From positions 1 through 48,163 of the forward strand of contig JANYIQ010000012.1 in the NCBI GenBank assembly GCA_025362575.1: a DNA stretch of 48,163 bases. The letters are read 5' to 3'. The position numbers and the translations under genes were made by a program. The notes beneath the pieces were generated by a model, which saw only the letters and a program-made list of their open reading frames with translations, made no database searches and had not been told where the DNA came from. The DNA comes from Bacteroidia bacterium. Its GTDB lineage: Bacteria > Bacteroidota > Bacteroidia > B-17B0 > Aurantibacillaceae. Each line of letters starts with the position of its first letter. Position 1 is the stretch's first letter. This document shows positions 5,056 through 43,292 of this stretch, one piece after another.

Positions 5056-7275
5056 ATGCTTGCCGAAATAGGAACAGGAGAAATACACGAAGTATTAAAA
5101 AGCTTTTTTGGCTTTGAGGGCTTCAAAGGGAATCAGGAAAAGATCATCCAAAACGTGCTTAACGGGAAGGATACTTTCGTAATTATGCCAACCGGTGGTG
5201 GAAAATCGCTATGCTATCAATTGCCTGCCATATTAAATGAAGGAACTGCTATTGTTGTATCGCCTCTTATTGCTTTAATGAAGAACCAGGTGGATGCCAT
5301 CCGGGGCTTTAGTAATGAATCAGGAATTGCCCATTTTTTAAATTCATCATTAAATAAAAGTGAAATAGCAAAAGTAAAGGCGGATGTATTAGGTGGTAAA
5401 ACAAAATTATTATACGTTGCCCCGGAAACTTTAACCAAAGAAGATAACGTAAAGTTCTTTTCTGAATTTAAGATCTCTTTTTTCGCGATCGATGAAGCTC
5501 ATTGTATTTCAGAATGGGGTCACGATTTTCGCCCTGAGTACCGTCGCTTGCGCCCTATTATTGATAAAGTAGGAAATGTTCCGGTAATGGCTTTAACAGC
5601 AACCGCAACTCCAAAAGTACAACAGGATATTCAGAAGAACTTAGGTATGATGACCGCCACTTTATTTAAGTCATCATTTAACCGCCCGAATTTATATTAC
5701 GAAGTACGTCCTAAACAGAATGTAATTAAAGAGATCATAAAATACGTAAAACAAAACACCGGAAAGTCAGGCATTATTTATTGCTTGAGCCGTAAAAAAG
5801 TTGAAGAAATTGCACAGGCTCTTAAAGTAAATGGTATCAAAGCACAGCCTTACCACGCAGGATTAGATGCTAAAGAGCGCGCGCGTACTCAAGATCTCTT
5901 TTTGATGGAAGATATTGATGTTATTGTTGCAACGATCGCTTTTGGTATGGGTATTGATAAGCCGGATGTGCGTTACGTTATTCACCACGATATTCCAAAA
6001 TCATTGGAAGGATATTATCAGGAAACAGGTCGCGCCGGGCGTGATGGTGCCGAAGGAAATTGCGTAACCTTTTACAGTTACGATGATATCATGAAACTGG
6101 AGAAGTTCATGAAAGATAAACCGGTTGCCGAACAGGAAATTGGAAAACAAATGCTGAGCGAAACGGCTGCTTTTGCAGAAACATCTTCGTGTCGCCGTAA
6201 ATTTTTATTACATTATTTTGGTGAAGAATTCGTAGAAGCAAAATGTAATGAGATGTGCGATAATTGCGCGCACCCTAAACAACGCTTCGAAGCAAAAGAC
6301 GATCTGGAATTAGCCATCGAAACTGTTCTTGAAATTAAAGAGAAACATAAGATCAAGGATGTGATAAATGTGTTGATGGGAACATTAACAGCCACTTCAA
6401 AATCGTACAAACACAATAACCTCGATGTGTGGGGTAAAGGTGCTGAAGATGATCATAACGATAAATTCTGGAATGCCGTTTTACGCCAGGCTATTGTGAA
6501 CGGTTATCTGATGAAAGACATTGAGAATTACGGTTTGGTAAAAGTTACAGATAAAGGAAAAGACTTTTTAAAGAAACCGCACAGTATTAAATTTACATTA
6601 GATCACGATTATAGTGGCGCCGATAAAGCGCATCACGATGATGATGATTTTATTGCCGGTGGAAAGGGCGGAAGCAGTGTAGCTGATGAAACTTTATTTG
6701 CAATGCTGAAAGATCTAGTGAAGAAGATGGCAAAACAAAAAGCACTTCCTCCTTATGTGATCTTTCAAGAAACCTCTTTGGAAGAAATGTCTATTCAATA
6801 TCCTATTACCATGGAAGAATTGACAAAGATCTCAGGAGTAGGTGCAGGTAAAGCCACAAAATTCGGAAAGGCATTCATAGATCTGATCAGAACTTATGTT
6901 GATGAGAACGAAATTGAACGTCCGGTTGACATGGTCATTAAATCTGTGGTCAATAAATCGGGACTAAAAGTTTATATCATTCAGAATGTGGATCGCAAGA
7001 TCAGTTTAGTGGATATGGCCCGTTCAAAAAGTTTAAAAATGAACGATCTGTTAACGGAGATGGAAACCATTGTTGCTTCCGGAACCCGCCTGAATATTAA
7101 TTATTACATTGATGATGTAATAGATGAAGAAAAACAGGAAGAAGTAATGGAATATTTCAAAGAATCGGAAAGCGACAGCATTGACCTTGCCATGAAAGAA
7201 CTTGGCGAGAACGATTATACAGAAGAGGAGATTCGATTAATGAGAATAAGATTCCTTTCGGATTTCGGGAATTAA
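5056..7275 (+). CDS. recQ: ATP-dependent DNA helicase RecQ
   Basis: A superfamily 2 3'-5' DNA helicase used in recombination and replication-fork repair. In the 739-residue protein: Walker A PTGGGKS at about 46-52, DEAH at about 146-149 followed by [13 protein letters not shown] (the RecQ aromatic-rich loop), SAT-like LTATATP at about 178, [10 protein letters not shown] at about 238, the [10 protein letters not shown] motif VI at about 322, and a zinc-binding cluster with Cys at about 379 and C-x3-C-x2-C at about 396-403. An HRDC domain follows at about 570-640. The last 100 residues resemble the extra C-terminal helix-turn-helix region of the long Bacteroidota RecQ form; E. coli RecQ is near 610 residues. 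It stands alone with its own leader. Confidence 0.96.
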
Positions 7276-26749: not shown

Positions 26750-29700
26750 ATGCAAAGCTGGCCCTATTTGATCTATTTGTTTTTTACCAAGCGTAAACTC
26801 GTTTTTACGGTTTTGATGATCGCAATGTGTGCCGGTTTTGGTTATTATGCGAGTAAAATTCAATTAGAGGAAGACATTACCCGTTTTATTCCTCAGGATA
26901 AAAATTCAGCCAGCATAAACTCCATTTTGGAGAATCTTAAATCAAAAGACAAGCTTGTCATTCACTTATCTACTTCCAATTCTGAAAATGTAGAAAAACT
27001 GGAAGAACAAGCGGATCTGCTTTTTGACACCATTCAAAAGACAATACCAAAAAAAGATTATTTTGATATCACCTATAAAATTTCGGATACCAGAATGCAA
27101 GGGGTGTATGAACTATTTTATAAAAACCTTCCTGCACTTTTAAATTCAAGTGATTATTCTAGAATTCAACAATTAGTAAACGCAGACAGCATTAAGGCAA
27201 CACTAAAAAAGGATTATGAAGCCTTATTGAGCCCTTCAGGAATTGTATTATCGAAATACATTATTCGTGATCCGTTGAACATTGTGCCGCTGGCCTTAAA
27301 GAAACTTGAGAACATTCAGATCGATGAGAATTTTGAAACTTATAATGGCGCGATCGTAACAAAAGATCATAAGCATTTGTTGCTCTATATTACCCCTGCA
27401 TATGCTTCTAATGAAACTGCCAAAAACAAAGATCTTATAGCCCTTGTAAGATCAGCTTCCAAAAAATATTCTACCGCTTATGTAAATATTGAACCCTTTG
27501 GTGCCTGTATGGTAGCTCAGGGTAATGCAGAGCAACTAAGGAAGGACAGCGTGTTAACAACTACGATCGCTGTTATTTTAATAGGATTACTTATCGGTTT
27601 GTATTTTAAAAATATATTGCCGGTAATTTTTATTTTTTTACCTGTGATATTCGGCATGACATTTTCTCTAGCCATGCTATTTATTTTTAAAGGTGTGGTT
27701 TCGGCCATTGCGGTTGGAGCCGGAGCAGTGGTATTGGGAATTGCTATTAATTACAGCATGCACTTTTTTACGCATTACAAGCATACGCGAAGCATCAAAT
27801 CAGTCCTGGCAGATCTTACCTTACCCATGTTAATTGGCTGTACAACAACTGTTGGTGCGTTTTTCAGTTTGTCGTTTGTGAAAAGTGAAGCCCTGCACGA
27901 TTTCGGACAATTCGCCGCTTTATGTTTGATAGGTGCCATATTATTTTCAATTGTGGTCTTGCCGCATCTTTTGAAAGTCGCTTTCAAGGAAATCGATCCT
28001 AATGAAATGAAAAGCGAAGAGCACGAAACTTTTTTGGATAAATTAGTAGGTTATCGTTTCGATAAAAATAAAATAATTGTTTTCCTTTCATTAGCCTTAA
28101 GTATTTTCTTTAGTTTCTACGCTTCAAAAGTTGGTTTTGAAAGCGACATGAATAAAATGAGCTATATGGATGAAGAAACCAGAATGGCTGAAAAACATTT
28201 GGATGAGGTCACCAATTTTGCGGCCCGTTCGGTTTTTATTTTTGCTTCAGGGGATAATTTAGAGCAAGCACTTCAGCGAAACGAAAGCATTTCACAAAAA
28301 CTGGATTCTCTGAAACAGAACGGAACAATCAAGAAATTCAGTTCGGTTTCAGCCATTTTCCCTTCACAAAAACTACAGAACGAACGCCATCAACAATGGA
28401 ATTCTTTTTTTGATGCATCGAGAAAAGATAGTATTCAAAAGCAATTAGTGCGATACGGAGCAGAGCATAAATTCAAGCCAGAAGCCTTCTCCGGTTTTTA
28501 TGCAAACTTAAATACGGTGCCAGTATTAATTGATAAAGCGGATTCTGATTCTTTGAATAGATATTTTCTCAAAGACTTTATTACGGAAGTTAATGGCAAA
28601 CCAACTGTAATAAATCACATTAAAGTAAGTGTTGAAAATAAGGACCTTATTTACAAATTGTTCGAAGAAAATGAAGGTGTTGTGGTTTTTGATAAACAGC
28701 ATCTTACTTCTCAGTTTGTGCAAGTGATCAGTTCTGATTTTAATACTATACTCTGGATAACTTCAATCCTGGTATTTGGCTTTATGCTACTATCACACGG
28801 TCGTATAGAAATTGCTCTTATCAATTTTCTTCCAATGCTTATCTCATGGCTTTGGATACTCGGAATTATGGGCCTGCTCGGAATTAAGTTCAACATCATT
28901 AATATCATCATTTCCACTTTTATTTTTGGTTTGGGCGATGATTATTCGATTTTCATAATGGATGGTTTGCTGAATGAGTTTAAATTGGGAAAACGAAATC
29001 TGGGAAGTTACAAAACTTCCATTTTGCTTTCTGCTCTTACAAGTATAATTGGAATTGGAGTGATGGTGTTTGCGAAACACCCGGCCTTAAAGTCGATAGC
29101 GCTTATCACGATCATTGGAATGTTCTGCGTTGTATTTGTTTCTTTCGTGGTGCAGCCATTGATCTTTAACTGGATCGCGCTGAACAGAAAAAACCGAGGC
29201 CTTTTGCCATACACCTTCAAAAATATCAGCATCACTATTATAGGTTTTGCTTTATTCGTTGCTTCCTCTCTTATTCTTACCATTCTCGGCGCACTTATCT
29301 TCACCATATTTCCGGCAGGCATTAAAAAGAGGAAGCTGGTTTTTCATTATCTGATCATGTTTACTTTCAGGACAGTGCTTGCAGCTTTTGTGAACGTGAA
29401 AAAGAAGATAATCAACGAGCAAAAGGAGGATTTCAAAAAGCCTGCTTTAATTATTTCCAACCATCAGTCGCACATTGATCTTGCACTCACGCTTCAATTG
29501 TATCCTAAGATAATTGTATTCACAAATGACTGGGTTTACAATTCGCCTTTTTACGGATGGGTAGTAAAAATGGCAGATTATTATCCGGCCTCGGATGGTT
29601 ACGAAAATAGTTTACCGAAACTGGAAGCCATGGTAAAGGATGGCTACTCTGTATTGATCTTCCCGGAAGGTACAAGAAGTATTGATGGCGACATTCATCG

Positions 29701-30601
29701 TTTTCATAAGGGGGCATTTTTACTGGCCGAAAAACTAGGTCTGGATATTGTGCCTTTATTATTGCACGGAGCCGGAGATGCTGTCACCAAAAATGATTTC
29801 CATTTTAAAGATGGGGCATTGACTGTGAAAATTTTGCCGAGGATAAAAGCAGGAGATGTAATGTTCGCTTCTAATTATCAGGATCGAACCAAAAATATTT
29901 GTAATTACATGCGCTTCGAATATGCTTTACTCAAAGAACAATGTGAACCGGTAGAATATTTTCGTTCGCGTTTGATCGGAAATTATATTTTTAAAGGGCC
30001 TGTTTTAGAATGGTACTGCCGTATAAAAACAAAATTAGAGGGTAATTATAAGCTATTTGAAAGCCTTTTGCCTAAAGAAGGTAAGATCATTGATGTTGGC
30101 TGCGGTTATGGTTTCTTGCCTTACATGCTACACTACAAAAGTAAAAAACGTGACATCTTAGGTTTGGATTTTGATGAAGAAAAAATTGAGGTGGCCCAGA
30201 ACTGTCAGCATAATAATTCTAAACTTCAATTTAGTGTAGCGGATGCAACTACTTATGATTTTCCGAAAGCAGACGGGATCATTATCAGCGATGTGTTGCA
30301 TTATCTGGAGCCTGAACAACAAGTGAATGTTATTGAAAAATTAGCTGCGCAATTGAATAAGAACGGTGTTTTGGTTATTCGCGATGCAGATGCCGATCTA
30401 ACAACACGTCAAAAAGGAACATGGTACACTGAATTTTACAGCACAAATTCCGGCTTTAATAAAACCTCAAAAACGGGCTTGCATTTTGTGAGTGGCAAGA
30501 TCATAAAAGATACTTTAGGTAAATTTCCTGCCCTGAAGGTCGAGATCATTGACAACACTAAGCTTACGTCCAATATCATATATGTTGCACGTTACATTTA
30601 A
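26750..30601 (+). CDS. Trifunctional MMPL transporter / lysophospholipid acyltransferase / methyltransferase
   Basis: A 1283-residue fusion. Residues 1 to about 860 are an MMPL/RND-type exporter: helix at about 15-32, periplasmic loop, a sterol-sensing-domain-like five-helix block at about 262-410, a second periplasmic loop at about 450-660, and a second block at about 665-850 with the FIFGLGDDYSIFIMDG motif. Residues about 880-1070 are a PlsC-like acyltransferase with NHQSHIDLAL (NHx4D, about 904) and FPEGTRS (about 971). Residues about 1085-1283 are a class I SAM methyltransferase with IIDVGCGYGFLPYM (about 1112) and a late VLVIRDADAD strand. I know this architecture from Bacteroidota lipid/flexirubin-type loci, where it is thought to modify and export lipids. 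Confidence 0.9.
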   Translation: MQSWPYLIYLFFTKRKLVFTVLMIAMCAGFGYYASKIQLEEDITRFIPQDKNSASINSILENLKSKDKLVIHLSTSNSENVEKLEEQADLLFDTIQKTIPKKDYFDITYKISDTRMQGVYELFYKNLPALLNSSDYSRIQQLVNADSIKATLKKDYEALLSPSGIVLSKYIIRDPLNIVPLALKKLENIQIDENFETYNGAIVTKDHKHLLLYITPAYASNETAKNKDLIALVRSASKKYSTAYVNIEPFGACMVAQGNAEQLRKDSVLTTTIAVILIGLLIGLYFKNILPVIFIFLPVIFGMTFSLAMLFIFKGVVSAIAVGAGAVVLGIAINYSMHFFTHYKHTRSIKSVLADLTLPMLIGCTTTVGAFFSLSFVKSEALHDFGQFAALCLIGAILFSIVVLPHLLKVAFKEIDPNEMKSEEHETFLDKLVGYRFDKNKIIVFLSLALSIFFSFYASKVGFESDMNKMSYMDEETRMAEKHLDEVTNFAARSVFIFASGDNLEQALQRNESISQKLDSLKQNGTIKKFSSVSAIFPSQKLQNERHQQWNSFFDASRKDSIQKQLVRYGAEHKFKPEAFSGFYANLNTVPVLIDKADSDSLNRYFLKDFITEVNGKPTVINHIKVSVENKDLIYKLFEENEGVVVFDKQHLTSQFVQVISSDFNTILWITSILVFGFMLLSHGRIEIALINFLPMLISWLWILGIMGLLGIKFNIINIIISTFIFGLGDDYSIFIMDGLLNEFKLGKRNLGSYKTSILLSALTSIIGIGVMVFAKHPALKSIALITIIGMFCVVFVSFVVQPLIFNWIALNRKNRGLLPYTFKNISITIIGFALFVASSLILTILGALIFTIFPAGIKKRKLVFHYLIMFTFRTVLAAFVNVKKKIINEQKEDFKKPALIISNHQSHIDLALTLQLYPKIIVFTNDWVYNSPFYGWVVKMADYYPASDGYENSLPKLEAMVKDGYSVLIFPEGTRSIDGDIHRFHKGAFLLAEKLGLDIVPLLLHGAGDAVTKNDFHFKDGALTVKILPRIKAGDVMFASNYQDRTKNICNYMRFEYALLKEQCEPVEYFRSRLIGNYIFKGPVLEWYCRIKTKLEGNYKLFESLLPKEGKIIDVGCGYGFLPYMLHYKSKKRDILGLDFDEEKIEVAQNCQHNNSKLQFSVADATTYDFPKADGIIISDVLHYLEPEQQVNVIEKLAAQLNKNGVLVIRDADADLTTRQKGTWYTEFYSTNSGFNKTSKTGLHFVSGKIIKDTLGKFPALKVEIIDNTKLTSNIIYVARYI

Positions 30602-35191: not shown

Positions 35192-35199
35192 TACCTTTG
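35192..35199 (+). promoter_or_regulatory. Candidate -7 box for the exported trio
   Basis: TACCTTTG is an exact TAnnTTTG match 10 bases before the ATG at 35210, so the transcript would be nearly leaderless. It supports the ATG at 35210 over a TTG at 35201. No strong -33 TTTG is visible. Confidence 0.4.
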
Positions 35200-35209
35200 C
35201 TTGAACTCA

Positions 35210-35578
35210 ATGTTAAAATTTACAGTATCGATAGCGCTTATTTTTTGTTTTCTGACGCAGAGCCTCAGTAAATTGATCATTGTTTTGAACTACCAGATCA
35301 ACAAAGAATTTATTACCAAAAATATTTGCGTAAATCGTAACAAGCCAAAAAGTTGCTGTAAAGGAAAATGCGAACTGAAGAAACAGTTGGATGCAGACGA
35401 TAAAAAAGACAATGTCCCTGCTAATACCAATAAGGACAAGTTTGAAAAGGAGGATTTTTGTCAAGTTATCAAAACAAATGTATTTGACCTCGCAAGAACA
35501 GCAGATCTGAATTGTAAATTCATATCCCATAAAACAAAGGAGTTTCCAATTTTCGTTTTCCACCCGCCGCAGAGTTAA
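35210..35578 (+). CDS. Small exported Cys-rich protein with CCxGKC motif
   Basis: A 122-residue protein with a hydrophobic N-terminal segment (about residues 1-26) that could be a signal peptide or anchor. A conserved-looking block LNYQINKEFITKNICVNRNK then leads into KSCCKGKCELKKQL at about 46-59. I have seen C-x-GKC-x-LxKQL blocks in small Bacteroidota proteins that lie near metal or TonB-linked genes, but no function is assigned. The middle is charged and low in complexity (DDKKDN, KDKFEKED), with another Cys later. The start is the ATG at 35210. It heads a three-gene run of exported proteins. Metal binding is an inference from the cysteines. Confidence 0.65.
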   Translation: MLKFTVSIALIFCFLTQSLSKLIIVLNYQINKEFITKNICVNRNKPKSCCKGKCELKKQLDADDKKDNVPANTNKDKFEKEDFCQVIKTNVFDLARTADLNCKFISHKTKEFPIFVFHPPQS

Positions 35579-35618
35579 TTCATCATCTGAATTTTAGTTT
35601 CTAATTTAATCAAACAGT

Positions 35619-36554
35619 ATGAAAAAAATATTTTTTATTCTGCTTGGACTGTTTTCTTTTTATTTTGATTCGGCGCAATGTGCCTGTTGTGGTTCATCTT
35701 CCAATTTTTCGGCAGGTGAACTAACTCCTACGGCTTATGCTTTGGGAAAAAGGCAAATAATGGGTGAGTTATATACCGACTTGCGGTTTTTTAACGGCAC
35801 ATCGCATTCTACTCATTCAGATCATCAAAATCAAGTAACAGCGCCGGTATTAAACAACATGGCTATTGAAATTATAGGCTTACGTTACGGCATTAGCAAT
35901 AAGGTAAGTTTATTGATTCAACAACCGTATATTTTAATAAATAGTTCGGCAACAAGCAGCAAAGCATTCGGTGATCTTTTATCACTGATAAATTATAAGG
36001 TTTATGGCAGATCAAATTTTGTGATTGGCTTGCAATTAGGTATGGAATGGCCTACGGGTCAGTATGTACTTATAAACGGCAGCAATTCTATCTCAACAGG
36101 CTCAGGTTCTTACGATCCTGTTGCAGGATTTAACATGGTAAGGTCATTTAAAAGATCAGCGTTAAGAGCGAGTGGCTTTTTTAAATACACGACCAAGGGA
36201 TTTAATGGAACCAATTATGGCGATTTTTTTGGCCATCAATTAGGTTACAATTATTTTCTTAAAAATCCGGTTGTTACCTGCAGTTCTGATAGTACAAAAC
36301 AAATTAGTTCAGGATTGAGCTGGAGTATATTGTGTCAGTTATCAGGAGAATGGTCGCAATCACAGTTTAGTGAACATGCCATGCTAGCTAACACGGGCTC
36401 CTATTTGGCATTGGCAGGTATTGGAACGAGTTTCGGATTCAAAGGATTTTCGATCCCTATCATGCTATCAGTGCCATTTTATCAATCTTACTATGGAGAA
36501 CAGAACCAAACACAATTTCGAATCAGAATAGGCCTAACAAAAACATTTAATTAA
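35619..36554 (+). CDS. Predicted outer-membrane barrel / transporter-like protein with CxCCG N-terminus
   Basis: A 311-residue exported protein. After the signal peptide (about 1-20, ending FDSAQ) the mature N-terminus is CACCGSSSNFSAGE. The rest alternates strands and turns (ALGKRQIMGELYTDLRFF; IIGLRYGISNKVSLLIQQPY; VIGLQLGMEWPTGQYV; ALRASGFFKY; GIGTSFGFKGFSI; final RIRIGLTKTF). This is the pattern of the transporter-like OMP family that includes metal-associated channel proteins. A His-rich loop THSDHQ sits at about 63-70. It may handle a soft metal, by inference from Cys/His content and neighbours. Confidence 0.65.
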   Translation: MKKIFFILLGLFSFYFDSAQCACCGSSSNFSAGELTPTAYALGKRQIMGELYTDLRFFNGTSHSTHSDHQNQVTAPVLNNMAIEIIGLRYGISNKVSLLIQQPYILINSSATSSKAFGDLLSLINYKVYGRSNFVIGLQLGMEWPTGQYVLINGSNSISTGSGSYDPVAGFNMVRSFKRSALRASGFFKYTTKGFNGTNYGDFFGHQLGYNYFLKNPVVTCSSDSTKQISSGLSWSILCQLSGEWSQSQFSEHAMLANTGSYLALAGIGTSFGFKGFSIPIMLSVPFYQSYYGEQNQTQFRIRIGLTKTFN

Positions 36555-36574
36555 ATAATTTAAACTTTTAAAAC

Positions 36575-36958
36575 ATGAAAAAAACGATCACAACAATTTT
36601 ACTGGCAACTGCAATATTTGTAGCACCTTCTTGTAAAAAAAGCAGCACAGGCGGAGAGGTTAAAATTGCAGCTTTTCCGGAACATCATGGTAAATCAATT
36701 TACGGAGCAACCGTATATATAAAATTTGGCGCAAGCGATCTGCCTTCAAATCCTACAACTAATTACGACATGAAAGTAGATGGTGAGGCCAATGAAGAGC
36801 ACGTGCACATTGAAGGCCTTCGATATGGCAAGTATTACCTGTATTCAGTTGGTTACGACAGCAGTATTCATATGCCGGTTACAGGAGGTGTTGCTGTAAA
36901 AGTGAAATGGAAGGAACGTAAACAGGAGCTCGATATTAAGGTTCCGGTTACTGAGTAA
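36575..36958 (+). CDS. Small His-containing lipoprotein
   Basis: A 127-residue lipoprotein with lipobox VAPSC at about residues 16-20 and a KKSS linker, then a beta-sandwich-like pattern: VKIAAFPEHHGKSIYGATVY, MKVDGEANEEHVHIEGLRYG, YYLYSVGYDSS, AVKVKWKERKQELDIKV. The EHH and HVHIEG histidines recall small metal-binding lipoproteins, but no named family is recognised. It follows the barrel gene by 20 bases and is followed by a strong terminator, so it closes the trio transcript. Confidence 0.65.
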   Translation: MKKTITTILLATAIFVAPSCKKSSTGGEVKIAAFPEHHGKSIYGATVYIKFGASDLPSNPTTNYDMKVDGEANEEHVHIEGLRYGKYYLYSVGYDSSIHMPVTGGVAVKVKWKERKQELDIKVPVTE

Positions 36959-36974
36959 AATTCTAAATATTTAG

Positions 36975-37006
36975 GCCGTCACAATTATTTTGTGACGGCT
37001 TTTTTA
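36975..37006 (+). terminator. Strong terminator after the exported trio
   Basis: GCCGTCACA (36975-36983) and TGTGACGGC (36991-36999) form a perfect 9-bp stem with a 7-nt loop, followed by TTTTTTAT. Confidence 0.88.
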
Positions 37007-37066
37007 TGTCAGAAAAAGACGTAATTTAGTATAGGAATTGCCGAATTGAGGTTTATTTCAAAATGC

Positions 37067-38893
37067 ATGAAATCAGGTTTGGAAAAGAAAATAAAAGAAC
37101 TGGAAGCAGAAGTGAAAAGCTTAACGCTTGAGAACAAAAAACTCAGATCCATTCCTGAAAAACCAGAAAGTAAACCTACTGTTAAAGTTCCTGAACAAAT
37201 TCAGCCTATTTTTGATAAGGCAGAAAAAACGGTAGGCGATTATTTTAAATCTTTGAAATTTACTCCTTCTAAAGGTACCATCGAAATCAATGAAGAGCGT
37301 TATGTGCTGGTACGAGCTTCGGCTTTATCGCATGAGTTTTTATATTCCATAAAGAATTTATATAAAGACAGAGGGGAGTTAGAGGCATTGAACATCGGGA
37401 AAAATATTTTATTTGATCTGGCCCATGTGATTGGAACGGAGGATGCTCATAATTTCCATAAAAAGATGAAATTAACAGACCCTATTTCAAAATTATCAGC
37501 GGGGCCTGTTCATTTTGCATATGCAGGCTGGGCTTTTGTTGATATTTCTCCGGAAAGTAAACCTAGTCCCGACGAAAACTATTTTTTGAAGTACAATCAT
37601 CCTTTTTCTTTTGAAGCGGACAGCTGGATACGTGCTAAAAAGAAATCTAATTTCCCTGTGTGCATCATGAACGCAGGTTATTCGAGTGGCTGGTGTGAAG
37701 CCAGTTTTGGAATTACCTTAACTGCGGTGGAAATTACCTGTCGCGCAAAAGGAGATAAGCATTGTACTTTTATCATGGCTCCGCCCAATAAAATTGATGA
37801 ATATTTAAAACGTGATAAAAAACTCGGACTTAGAGGATCTATTGCCATTCCGGCATTTTTGGAACGTAAAAAGATCGAAGAAGAATTAAAATCAAGTGAG
37901 AAGCATTATCGGGAGATATTTGAGAATGCTTCAGACATGATTCAAACTATTGATCTCGGAGGTAATATTTTATACGTAAACGATGCCTGGAGAAAGACAT
38001 TAGGATTTCAGAAGAATGAAATCCAAAATAAAAACATTATTGATTTTATTCATCAAGATTATCGTGATCATTGTTTGAGAATGATGGGCGCATTAGCGGA
38101 TGGAATGATGGAAAGTCTTGATAAAGTAGAGATCGCATTTATTACTAAAACAAACAAAACAGTTCTGGTTGAGGGGAATATTAACCTCAGAAGAGAAAAT
38201 GGCGTACCGGTTGGGACAAGAGCAATTTTCAGAAACATTACGGAAAAAAAGAAAGCTCAGGAGAAAGTGAAATCTTCATTAGTTGAAAAGGAAGTTTTAT
38301 TAAAGGAGATTCATCACCGCGTAAAAAATAATCTTCAGATCATGTCGAGTTTATTGAACCTTCAGGCTGACTCTATTAAAGATCTTAAAGCGAAGGAAAA
38401 GTACACCGAGAGTATCGGGCGAATAAAGTCAATGGCCATTATTCATGAGTTATTGTACCGTTCAAAGAATTTATCAAGTATTAAGATAAAAGACTACGTG
38501 ACTGAACTGGTGAACTATATTTCAAAAACCTATAGCATCAATCCGAAAATAAAAGTGGATTTTAGCATTAAGGTGGAGAATGAATTTATTGATCTTGATA
38601 AAGCAATTCCTTGCGGGATCATTATTAACGAATTATTATCGAATGCTTTTAAGTACGCCTATGCTAAAACCGAGAGCGGTAAAATAAAAGTAGAATTCAC
38701 GCAAAATCACGGGTCAAAATACAATTATCAGTTAATTGTTTCTGATCATGGTATTGGAATGGCAAAAAAAATTGATTTTGTAAATCCTTCTACGCTTGGC
38801 CTGCAGTTAGTGCATACTTTGGTTGAACAGATCGGCGGAAAAATGGAAGTAGAATTAAAGAACGGAACAAAATTCATTATTAAGTTCCCTTAA
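37067..38893 (+). CDS. Histidine kinase with V4R, PAS and HisKA_2 domains
   Basis: A 608-residue cytoplasmic sensor kinase. An N-terminal coiled coil (about 4-32) leads to a XylR-N/V4R-type ligand domain at about 45-250, with RASALSHEFLYSIKN, HFAYAGWAFVDI, NAGYSSGWCEASFG and CRAKGDKHCTFIMAPP. A PAS domain follows at about 277-400 (YREIFENASDMIQTID; FRNITEKKKAQE). The HisKA_2 block IHHRVKNNLQIMSSLLNLQ lies at about 418-436 and carries the phospho-His, and an HATPase domain has NELLSNAFKYAY (about 521), DHGIGM and GLQLV. No membrane helix and no receiver gene adjacent. Ligand unknown; V4R domains bind small hydrophobic or aromatic molecules in relatives. ATG 37067 is preferred over an upstream TTG. 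Confidence 0.88.
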   Translation: MKSGLEKKIKELEAEVKSLTLENKKLRSIPEKPESKPTVKVPEQIQPIFDKAEKTVGDYFKSLKFTPSKGTIEINEERYVLVRASALSHEFLYSIKNLYKDRGELEALNIGKNILFDLAHVIGTEDAHNFHKKMKLTDPISKLSAGPVHFAYAGWAFVDISPESKPSPDENYFLKYNHPFSFEADSWIRAKKKSNFPVCIMNAGYSSGWCEASFGITLTAVEITCRAKGDKHCTFIMAPPNKIDEYLKRDKKLGLRGSIAIPAFLERKKIEEELKSSEKHYREIFENASDMIQTIDLGGNILYVNDAWRKTLGFQKNEIQNKNIIDFIHQDYRDHCLRMMGALADGMMESLDKVEIAFITKTNKTVLVEGNINLRRENGVPVGTRAIFRNITEKKKAQEKVKSSLVEKEVLLKEIHHRVKNNLQIMSSLLNLQADSIKDLKAKEKYTESIGRIKSMAIIHELLYRSKNLSSIKIKDYVTELVNYISKTYSINPKIKVDFSIKVENEFIDLDKAIPCGIIINELLSNAFKYAYAKTESGKIKVEFTQNHGSKYNYQLIVSDHGIGMAKKIDFVNPSTLGLQLVHTLVEQIGGKMEVELKNGTKFIIKFP

Positions 38894-40362: not shown

Positions 40363-40462
40363 AAACTGCCCTTAAATTACTATATAATTAAAAGCCATTA
40401 AATAATACCCTAAAATATATCGAAAAAATATTTAAAATATTGATTATCAGTTATATGAATAA

Positions 40463-40493
40463 TTTTTTATTTCCAACAAAATCCTTATTTTTG
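40463..40493 (+). promoter_or_regulatory. Candidate promoter for the pyrophosphatase gene
   Basis: TTTT at 40463-40466, a 19-nt spacer and TATTTTTG at 40486-40493, an exact TAnnTTTG. Transcription would start near 40500, 15 bases before the ATG at 40515, which supports that start over an in-frame codon at 40440. Confidence 0.5.
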
Positions 40494-40514
40494 CACCCCT
40501 ATAAATGTAAAATT

Positions 40515-43292
40515 ATGAACGACAGTGTTATTTATTTAGTACCTCTTTTAGGTATTTTCGGATTAATCGTAATGGCCATCAAGTCTGCATGGGTTTCCAA
40601 GCAAGACGCCGGCGACAAGAACATGCAAGAATTGGCGGGTTATATCGCCGATGGAGCAATGGCCTTTTTAAAGGCAGAATGGAAAGTGTTAAGTATTTTC
40701 GTGGTGTTTGCTGCGGCTTTACTGGCCTATTCAGGTACAATTCATGAAGTTAACGGTAAAGAGATCCACTCGAGCTGGATCATCTCTATTGCCTTTATAA
40801 TAGGTGCAGTTTTTTCTGCAACCGCAGGTTATATTGGTATGAAAGTGGCTACAAAAGCTAACGTTCGTACTACTCAAGCGGCCCGTACAAGTTTAAAACA
40901 AGCTTTAAAAGTATCGTTTACAGGTGGTACTGTAATGGGCTTAGGTGTTGCCGGTTTGGCGATCTTAGGTTTAGGCGGATTATTCATCGCTTTTTTGGGA
41001 ATTTTTTCAAATTTAGAGGGCACTCAGGTTAGCACTGCTATCGAAGTATTAACCGGTTTCTCTTTGGGAGCTGAGTCAATTGCTTTATTTGCGCGTGTTG
41101 GTGGTGGTATTTATACTAAAGCTGCCGATGTTGGAGCTGACTTAGTAGGTAAAGTTGAAGCAGGTATTCCTGAAGATGACGTTCGTAACCCTGCAACAAT
41201 TGCCGATAACGTTGGTGATAACGTAGGTGATGTTGCCGGAATGGGTGCCGATCTTTTCGGTTCTTATGTTGCAACAATTTTAGCAACCATGGTTTTAGGT
41301 CAGGAAGTAAAAGTTACTGATGCATTTGGCGGCATGTCGCCAATTTTATTACCAATGGTAATTTGCGGTCTGGGTATTCTTTTCTCAATTGTAGGAACCT
41401 GGTTCGTTACCATTAAAGATGATAAGTCAAATGTTCAGAACGCCTTAAATATGGGTAACTGGGCTTCAATGGCTTTAACAGTAGTTGCATCTTATTTTAT
41501 TGTAATGTGGATGTTACCGGATGGCGATATTACTTTACGTACTGTAACCTTCACAAAAATGGGTGTGTTCATGGCTATTATAGTAGGAACGATTGTTGGA
41601 GCGATCATGAGTATTGTTACTGAGTATTATACTGCAATGGGTAAGCCCCCTGTGTTATCTATCATTCAGCAATCTTCTACAGGTCATGCCACAAACATCA
41701 TTGGTGGTTTATCTGTGGGTATGAAGTCGACCGTTATACCGATCTTAACTTTAGCAGGTGGTATCATGGGTTCTTATTATTGTGCAGGTTTATACGGTGT
41801 GGCTATTGCTGCCGCAGGTATGATGGCAACAACAGCCATGCAATTAGCAATTGATGCATTTGGTCCAATAGCGGATAACGCAGGTGGTATTGCTGAGATG
41901 AGTCAGTTACCTCCTGAAGTTCGTGAACGTACTGATAATTTAGATGCGGTTGGCAACACAACAGCAGCTACAGGAAAAGGTTTTGCTATTGCTTCCGCGG
42001 CTTTAACATCATTAGCTTTATTTGCTGCCTTTGTTGGAATTGCAGGTATTGATAGAATTGATATTTACAAAGCACCAGTATTAGCAGGTTTATTTGTAGG
42101 TGGTATGATCCCGTTCATTTTCTCTGCATTGTGTATACAAGCGGTTGGTAAAGCTGCAATGGACATGGTACAGGAAGTTCGTCGTCAATTCCGCGAAATT
42201 CCGGGAATCATGGAATACAAAGCAAAACCTGAATATGAAAAATGCGTTGCCATTTCCACTAAAGCTTCTATCCGTGAAATGATGATGCCGGGTGCAATTG
42301 CACTGGTTACTCCTGTTCTTGTTGGATTTATTTTTGGGCCTGAAGTGTTAGGTGGTTTATTAGCAGGTGTTACTGTATCCGGTGTATTGATGGGAATTTT
42401 CCAATCTAATGCAGGTGGTGCTTGGGATAACGCTAAAAAATCATTTGAAAAAGGTGTTTTAATTAATGGTGAGATGTTCTACAAGAAATCAGAACCACAT
42501 AAAGCATCTGTTACAGGTGATACTGTTGGTGATCCTTTCAAAGATACATCAGGACCATCGATGAATATCTTAATTAAATTAATGAGTATCGTTTCTTTGG
42601 TTATTGCTCCTTATATCGTTGGTATTGGTGGTGCAGGTATGTCAGAAACAAAAATCGTAAATAAAGAAGCTTATAAATTGAACATTAATGGCACTGAATA
42701 CAATTTCACAAGCAAAGCGCAAGTGGATAGTATGATGAATGCCAATGTAAAAGATGTTAACGAGTTGAATGGTAATTTTGAAGTAGACGGGGCTCACAGC
42801 TCTGTTGGTTTCAGCATTCGCCATTTAGTTACAGATACAAAAGGTACTATTGGTATCGACAGTGGTTATGTGAATATGCAAAATGCAAGTGGCCCGAAAG
42901 TGTTCATTCAAATGGATATGACCTCTTTAACCACACAAAACAGTATGCGTGATGGGCATTTAAAAGACAAGCCTGAATTCTTTGATGTTGCTAAGTTTAA
43001 AAAAGCAACATTTGAGGCTTCTGAAATTGTGAGGGATACTGCGATGGGTGCTGAATACAATTACGTTGCAAAGGGTAAATTAACTCTGAAGGGTGTTACC
43101 AAAGATGTAGAGTTGTATTTTAATTATTTAGGATATAATACAGAAGGAGAAGCTGCTGACAAAATGAACGTTGCAGGTTTCGAAGGACGCTGTGTAATTA
43201 ATAGAGTTGAATTTGGTGTTGGAGATTCAGGTGGAATTGGTGATAATGTAAAAATTTCAATTACATTGGAAGCAGGACAAAAAGCTAAATAA
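40515..43292 (+). CDS. hppA: Membrane pyrophosphatase (K+-dependent, probably H+) fused to YceI domain
   Basis: A 925-residue protein. Residues 1 to about 715 are a 16-helix membrane pyrophosphatase, which couples PPi hydrolysis to ion transport. The substrate motifs are intact: [13 protein letters not shown] at about 208, [16 protein letters not shown] at about 232, [13 protein letters not shown] at about 455, and [14 protein letters not shown] at about 670. [10 protein letters not shown] (about 478) has Ala where K+-independent enzymes have Lys, so K+ dependence is expected. [10 protein letters not shown] lacks the Glu of Na+ pumps, which points to H+. From about 750 to the end is a YceI-like lipocalin domain ([49 protein letters not shown]). 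M-PPase C-termini face the periplasm, where YceI proteins act. Confidence 0.93.

Follow-up and report, generated by a model that had tools for sequence, protein, structure and literature searches.

A candidate copper-sensing leader peptide heads a three-gene outer-membrane unit in a Bacteroidia genome

The window analyzed here is a 48,163-nucleotide stretch of DNA from a Bacteroidia bacterium (contig JANYIQ010000012.1 of GenBank assembly GCA_025362575.1), and our subject within it is a run of three genes on one strand at positions 35210 to 36958, which we designate P1, P2, and P3. We consider it probable that the run forms an outer-membrane module of Bacteroidota that responds to copper: P1 would be a leader peptide that senses copper in the manner of CutF and CruR, P2 a barrel with a CxCC motif, and P3 a partner bearing a His-His pair. 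A previous interpretation made from the nucleotide letters without database searches (hereafter, the sequence-only reading) described three exported products and proposed that they handle soft metals; direct reading of the sequence confirms the run of three genes and the apparent export of all three products. The features of the unit are as follows:

35192..35199, + strand: TAnnTTTG box, TACCTTTG, 10 nt upstream of the P1 ATG at 35210 (from the sequence)
35210..35578, + strand: P1, candidate CutF/CruR-like leader peptide, 122 aa, hydrophobic N-terminus (N-terminal-only profile and homologs)
35327..35371, + strand: P1 codons C40 to C54, three invariant cysteines and CxxxC (C50-K-G-K-C54)
35558..35569, + strand: P1 codons F117-H-P-P120, putative stalling motif, two codons before the stop
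35619..36554, + strand: P2, predicted 12-strand outer-membrane beta-barrel, 311 aa (AlphaFold, Foldseek)
35676..35690, + strand: P2 codons Q20-C-A-C-C24, N-terminal cysteine motif (conservation in 26 homologs)
35805..35825, + strand: P2 His loop (H63, H66, H69), not conserved (alignment of 26 homologs)
36575..36958, + strand: P3, 127-aa lipoprotein, His-His conserved almost throughout, beta-sandwich predicted (conservation and structure model)
36973..37001, + strand: intrinsic terminator-like hairpin of 12 pairs (6 G-C) with a T run behind it

Conserved architecture of P1

The window P1 contains the sequence KSCCKGKC, which includes C49, C50, and C54, and its N-terminus is hydrophobic as judged by inspection. 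We searched for homologs with a profile of the N-terminal part only, omitting the C-terminus to avoid bias. A CxxxC motif was present in all 76 complete P1 homologs identified in this way, and 75 of them also carry Pro-Pro among their last 15 residues, compared with 7 of 226 background small proteins; the single exception, at locus L153, has FHPP slightly further in. In the window P1, the CxxxC motif is CKGKC, Pro-Pro occupies residues 119-120 of 122, and the distance from CxxxC to Pro-Pro is 64 residues. Across 75 P1 proteins, this distance ranges from 63 to 73 residues, with a mode of 65 and a mean of 66.4 ± 2.4. In an alignment of 75 sequences, with one long form left out, C40, C50, C54, P119, and P120 are each conserved in 75/75, and F117 is conserved in 65/75. 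The mean entropy is 3.21 bits in the spacer between CxxxC and Pro-Pro versus 1.74 bits in the cysteine region.

For an out-of-sample test, a 60-column N-terminal alignment was searched against 247 genomes drawn across the phylum, and 98 of them were positive, including the genome of the window. With the window set aside, the 29 best loci yielded a set of 30 distinct P1 proteins; CxxxC was present in 30/30, Pro-Pro lay within the last 15 residues in 30/30, and the spacing was 66.2 ± 2.0 residues. Because Pro-Pro is conserved at the C-terminus at a nearly fixed distance from CxxxC, P1 is better read as a regulatory nascent peptide, and its earlier assignment as a metal-handling product is likely wrong.

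None of the three proteins matched a Pfam or NCBIfam model above cut-off; weak sub-threshold matches were the only ones found. We considered the NCBIfam family HYC_CC_PP as a possible relative of P1 and rejected it: the P1 sequences of the window and of locus L078 match no NCBIfam model, and the name was absent from the papers listed in a literature search for it. P1 was also considered as a member of DUF2946, for which there was no match at E 0.1 among the 21 P1 proteins tested.

Signals and genes around P1

The TAnnTTTG box, which we take to be the -7-like box of Bacteroidota, was found at positions -22 to -8 relative to the ATG in 14 of 33 P1 genes versus 43 of 883 control genes (Fisher p 9e-10, with relatedness ignored); the 33 P1 genes are those whose ATG lies where expected and for which 60 nt of sequence is available upstream. 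The nearly leaderless promoter described in the sequence-only reading is therefore supported both by the box 10 nt before the window ATG and by its recurrence among P1 genes. The closing terminator described there is present as well; a scan for terminator-like sites on both strands of a 2-kb stretch returned three, versus 1.2 (standard deviation 1.2) in shuffles. The P1-P2 gap is 40 nt and the P2-P3 gap is 20 nt.

A same-strand next gene was present for 74 of 77 P1 genes; the remaining three comprise two at contig ends and one with an overlapping opposite open reading frame. The median length of these 74 gaps is ~103 nt (105 nt for gaps of 30-380 nt) and the maximum is 368 nt; the control median is 46 nt for 960 same-strand neighbor pairs from all loci, overlapping loci included. 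These 74 next genes include 27 that encode MbnP (PF20243) and 32 that encode barrels with cysteine motifs (18 P2-type and 14 type B, a share inflated because 13 of the 18 P2-type loci were fetched for their P2), together with 8 YtkA-like genes, 2 TonB receptors, 1 SCO1, 2 AraC, and 2 sortilin/T9SS genes. In the out-of-sample set, 27 of 30 P1 genes had a same-strand next gene. The 26 that were scanned, with the second P1 of locus L230 excluded, gave 8 MbnP, 8 TonB plug, 2 YtkA, 2 YHS, 1 AraC, and 1 Phenol_MetA_deg. At loci L135 and L139 the gene order is P1-P2-P1-TonB, so that each P1 precedes an outer-membrane gene.

Two side observations concern these neighborhoods. At locus L230, two P1 genes lie near each other, and the second is followed by a TonB-type gene (identified by eye). 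At loci L104, L149, and L216, P1 is apparently directly upstream of genes for AraC-type regulators of 286-288 aa, an unexpected target for a copper leader.

Linkage of the three families and copper-related neighbors

Among 87 genomes of the same order, relatives of P3 were found in 75, P1 in 56, and P2 in 11 (8 strong full-length matches and 3 weak partial ones). Within 5 kb of the 67 P1 matches in these genomes, P3 was present at 28, one of the eight strong P2 matches at 6, and MbnP at at least 30. For the 108 P3 matches, MbnP lay within 5 kb at at least 40, and neither P1 nor MbnP was found at 55, among the matches listed. The MbnP pairings are lower bounds based on the 150 MbnP matches used; by arithmetic, fewer than one P1-MbnP pair would be expected by chance.

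Three locus types were distinguished. Type A has the order P1-MbnP-MbnH-P3-barrel, with a barrel that starts CDICG. Assignment of a TonB receptor to the ~2-kb gap between P1 and P3 of relatives proved wrong, as the gap holds MbnP- and MbnH-like genes. Type B (L101, L102, and L103) has the order P1-barrel-P3-small protein, in which the small protein carries a haem-like CxxxxCH motif recognized by eye; that of L103 had no Pfam match. At L103 a SCO1 gene identified with Pfam lies directly before P1, and similar-looking genes were seen by eye near L102 and L104; at L104 the barrel is separated from P1 by other genes. The window's own arrangement, P1-P2-P3, is type C. Epimerase loci were retrieved for all eight genomes of the genus, and the genomic site of the unit was compared in the window and in its congeners G053, G056, and G057: the site holds P1-P2-P3 in G057, a five-gene type A locus in the opposite orientation in G053, and P3 alone in G056.

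A scan of species genomes, partly the same genomes as the order set, identified 27 P2 loci. P1 was directly upstream of P2 in 20 of the 27, and P3 followed P2 in 8 of the 27; the linkage of the three families expected by the sequence-only reading therefore holds in part. Of the 27 loci, six belong to islands that also carry an HMA protein and a P-type ATPase, two lie beside an RND pump, and three adjoin nos genes. At L132 a NosZ match is further off, and at L126 and L141 there is only a weak MbnH-like match (~30% identity). Twenty random 16.9-kb regions from nine genomes of the order contained P1, P2, or P3 in none and a weak copper-family match in two. The resulting comparison of copper-family neighbors (14 of 27 P2 loci versus 2 of 20 random regions) is descriptive only, because the queries were taken from the same loci and weak matches were counted.

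Based on the frequent position of relatives' loci beside MbnP/MbnH-like, SCO1, HMA, P-type ATPase, RND, and nos genes, the general proposal of soft-metal (Cu, Zn, Ni) handling is probably right for copper. Copper is favored over zinc or nickel by these neighboring genes in relatives, not by the content of the window.

The nos-adjacent loci are of interest in their own right. L138 and L144, which are P1-P2 pairs, and L140, which has P2 alone, adjoin nos operons with NosZ, NosD, and NosY, joined in two cases by NosL. This placement hints that nitrous-oxide reductase may be supplied with copper in this way in Bacteroidota.

The predicted outer-membrane barrel P2

AlphaFold modeled P2 as a 12-strand barrel (mean pLDDT 73.5, pTM 0.75), with pLDDT below 50 at residues 1-39, 62-74 (the His loop included), and 221-229. 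Foldseek aligned this model to FapF (5o67, E 3.9e-10) and to a COG4313 channel (4rl8, E 5e-9), which share the 12-strand fold; P2 differs from these channels in its N-terminal CxCC motif, and its sequence had no match at E 0.1 to solved structures. The window P2 also matched no Pfam family at E 1, Phenol_MetA_deg included, and a comparison with plasmid records gave one weak match. In profile comparisons, P2 is related to the type A and type B barrels (probability 98.5 and 98.6, respectively).

QCACCG occupies P2 residues 20-25, after an apparent signal peptide. The sequence-only reading had noted CACCG and placed it at the mature end of the protein, a position that we specify as the predicted N-terminus of the mature protein. 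C21 is conserved in 26/26 homologs, C23 in 26/26, C24 in 25/26, and C221 in 20/26, and the His loop lacks any histidine in 11 of 26 aligned homologs.

The type B barrels (e.g., L103 6105-7181, - strand) carry HVH in their N-terminal part, and a stretch rich in Met (such as YRYMAMGM) comes next; this is another possible Cu(I) site.

The His-His lipoprotein P3

Inspection of P3 by eye places C20 in a lipobox, and its EHH and HVH motifs contain H37 and H38, and H76 and H78, respectively. C20 is conserved in 51/52 sequences, H37 in 51/52, and H38 in 49/52, whereas HVH is a sub-group trait (H76 in 20/52 and H78 in 18/52). The conservation of cysteines and histidines on which the sequence-only reading depended is accordingly found for C40, C50, and C54 of P1, C21, C23, and C24 of P2, and H37 and H38 of P3; it fails for H76 and H78 of P3 and for the P2 His loop. 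The structure model of P3 is a beta-sandwich (pLDDT 83.7) with weak transthyretin- or pilin-like fold matches (best E 1.1e-3). A profile match between P3 and MbnP (88.8%) was not used because it spans the lipoprotein signal.

Locus L119 carries two P3 copies ~6 kb apart (83-406 and 6387-6776), one beside P2 and one alone.

Surroundings of the unit in the window

An aldose epimerase gene with no metal link lies upstream of the unit, and a PAS/HisKA_2 histidine kinase gene (37046-38893) follows the terminator. The statement that no metal transporter or regulator is adjacent is thus nearly right: the kinase is a neighbor, and nothing ties it to metals. MbnP and MbnH were found neither between nor beside the three genes, and the four MbnP matches of the genome are on other contigs.

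Two further frames of the window each join several domains. A 950-aa frame at 40440-43292 joins an H+-pyrophosphatase to a C-terminal YceI domain (Pfam H_PPase E 5e-268, YceI E 7e-33), and a 1283-aa frame at 26750-30601 combines an MMPL-type transporter, an acyltransferase, and a methyltransferase.

Comparison with known copper-sensing leaders

CutF of Rhodobacter capsulatus has a signal peptide, a CxxxC motif, and a Pro-rich end, and in the presence of copper it activates the multicopper oxidase that it controls; genes of the CusC/CusA type are often found behind CutF-like genes (PMC9973294). That report lists 5,334 CutF-like proteins in 29 sequence clusters, with a Bacteroidota share of 19% (40% normalized). 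Of its defining rules, a length below 150 aa, Pro-Pro in the last 15 residues, and CxxxC are all seen in the window P1. As regards the rule of an N-terminal signal peptide, its N-terminus is hydrophobic by inspection, and the next gene lies close by on the same strand (40 nt away in the window). Since P1 satisfies the rules where tested, it is probably already inside the published CutF-like lists. CutF and P1 differ in spacing (45 versus ~65 residues), in the stem-loop (present in CutF, none before P2), and in the next gene, which is a multicopper oxidase for CutF and a barrel, MbnP, or TonB receptor for P1.

CruR, a DUF2946 protein of Bordetella pertussis, senses copper via CXXC and stalls 45 residues further on, at RAPP near its C-terminus; the copper operons that it heads contain TonB-transporter and MbnPH-like genes, and BfrG, the TonB transporter behind CruR, is copper-repressed (PMC9426467). 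P1 resembles CruR in its conserved Cys-to-PP spacing, its short tail after Pro-Pro, and, in some relatives, the TonB-receptor or MbnP genes behind it. The opposite copper responses of CutF and CruR are stressed by the authors of the CutF report (PMC9973294). Leaders that end in Pro and form clusters ahead of Sec genes are described from Bacteroidota only (PMC10987492). As for the MbnP/MbnH pair, relatives have MbnP- and MbnH-like genes between P1 and P3, accompanied by a P2-like barrel; G053 has this set at the genomic site that the unit occupies in the window. Both genes are absent from the window's unit. CorA/CorB, which resembles MbnP/MbnH in kind and not in sequence, is copper-repressed (2013 paper). 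Our searches of the open literature, with most subscription journals outside their scope, identified no experimental work on a Bacteroidota copper leader, P2, or P3.

Proposed mechanism and alternatives

We propose that translation of P1 would begin very close to the 5' end of the message and that its hydrophobic N-terminus would bring the chain to the Sec channel. With the ribosome at the F-H-P-P codons, the CxxxC motif ~65 residues ahead would be just emerging in the periplasm; a spacing of ~65 residues may approximate the ribosomal tunnel plus the translocon, which would put CxxxC at the periplasmic mouth of the translocon while Pro-Pro is still in the ribosome. Copper on CxxxC would then alter the length of the ribosome pause at Pro-Pro and, through it, the amount of P2-P3 message made or used, and the pause could act by Rho-dependent termination (as in CruR), by mRNA protection, or by reinitiation. 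The CxCC at the mature N-terminus of P2 would supply thiols for Cu(I), and the nearly invariant His-His of P3 may receive or present the metal. Because TonB receptors and MbnP lie behind other P1 genes and P1-P2 pairs lie by nos operons, we favor acquisition or delivery of copper, with the module made at low copper.

The same genes could instead serve copper efflux or tolerance, with a CutF-like P1 raising expression at high copper and P2 letting copper or a copper complex out. We regard this as possible, if the less probable direction: six of the 27 P2 loci lie in HMA/P-type ATPase islands and two beside RND pumps, and the activation of a multicopper oxidase by CutF and the CusC/CusA-type genes behind CutF-like genes fit it as well, but three P2 loci adjoin nos operons, MbnP and TonB receptors also occur downstream of P1, and both BfrG and CorA/CorB are copper-repressed. 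A structural or functional role for P1, as a membrane-anchored Cu(I) chaperone with three cysteines, the three products acting together in the envelope in line with the sequence-only reading, appears doubtful to us. The three invariant cysteines, the linkage to copper-linked genes, and the export signals apparent by eye in all three products would suit a chaperone; however, the half of P1 after the cysteines is variable in sequence, nearly fixed in length, and ended by Pro-Pro, none of which a folded chaperone would need, and P1 heads several unrelated gene types, with two P1 genes each placed before an outer-membrane gene at L135 and L139. We judge it unlikely, and slightly more so, that P2 plays no direct part in metal handling and is instead a channel of the COG4313/FapF fold for small molecules in general, its cysteine motif forming disulfides. 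Its closest solved folds and its lack of a curated family agree with such a channel, but its N-terminal cysteine cluster is invariant or nearly so, and the homologous type A and type B barrels start with cysteine motifs of their own in loci with MbnP/MbnH-like or SCO1 genes.

Several observations weigh against the interpretation of the unit as a copper-responsive module behind a leader peptide. No copper-like gene is adjacent to P1-P2-P3 in the window. The complete P1-P2-P3 order occurs at only 7 of the 27 P2 loci, and neither P3 nor MbnP lies within 5 kb at 24 of the 67 P1 matches, among the matches listed. P1 is not always the first gene, as a same-strand gene lies ≤100 nt upstream in 35 of 73 cases, and the gene behind P1 is in some cases of a type not known to act on copper (AraC, sortilin/T9SS). 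In relatives, the MbnP- and MbnH-like proteins score above the cut-offs of Pfam (MbnP, CCP_MauG) and fail those of the NCBIfam equivalogs, reaching 48 of the 140 bits and 218 of the 363 bits required, respectively; given this failure and the statement in the 2013 paper that no data then tied close MbnP homologs to copper, their copper role is carried over from the named families.

Other points concern the leader itself. A CutF-type stem-loop was found neither in the window gap, which is unstructured (-3.9 kcal/mol, z +0.31), nor as an excess among the family's 74 gaps, where z < -2 in 23 of 74 gaps 3' of P1 versus 47 of 150 controls; the stem-loop mechanism of CutF is therefore not supported here. 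The Pro-rich end of CutF was no strong staller in a LepB fusion (PMC9973294). CruR combines CXXC with RAPP at 45 residues, whereas P1 combines CxxxC with FxPP at ~65 and has no DUF2946 match. Finally, a recent paper reports that copper-gene leaders with RAPP/RGPP are lacking in Bacteroidota (EMBO J 2025, PMC12992588), which is no contradiction because P1 uses FxPP.

Implications for Bacteroidota

Beyond the window, P1 may exemplify a phylum-wide ruler for envelope copper in Bacteroidota, a proposal whose chances we see as evenly balanced. Such a ruler would consist of CxxxC, a nearly free spacer of 63-73 residues, and F-x-P-P at the stop, often nearly leaderless, and one would stand before each of many outer-membrane or periplasmic copper genes. 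Periplasmic copper would thus be read by the ribosome itself, and neither a stem-loop nor a transcription factor of its own would be needed; under the control of this ruler, P2 and P3 would then be two undescribed copper-transport families. Its targets, if the proposal is true, would include P2-type barrels, MbnP/MbnH, TonB receptors, and YtkA proteins. The nearly fixed spacing would in that case offer a natural series for locating metal sensing along the path from tunnel to translocon. The example also cautions against taking an exported protein for a metal carrier just because it is small, Cys-rich, and encoded first in its operon. If P1 is a nascent-chain sensor, many unannotated envelope genes of Bacteroidota could be identified as copper genes by the leader that precedes them.

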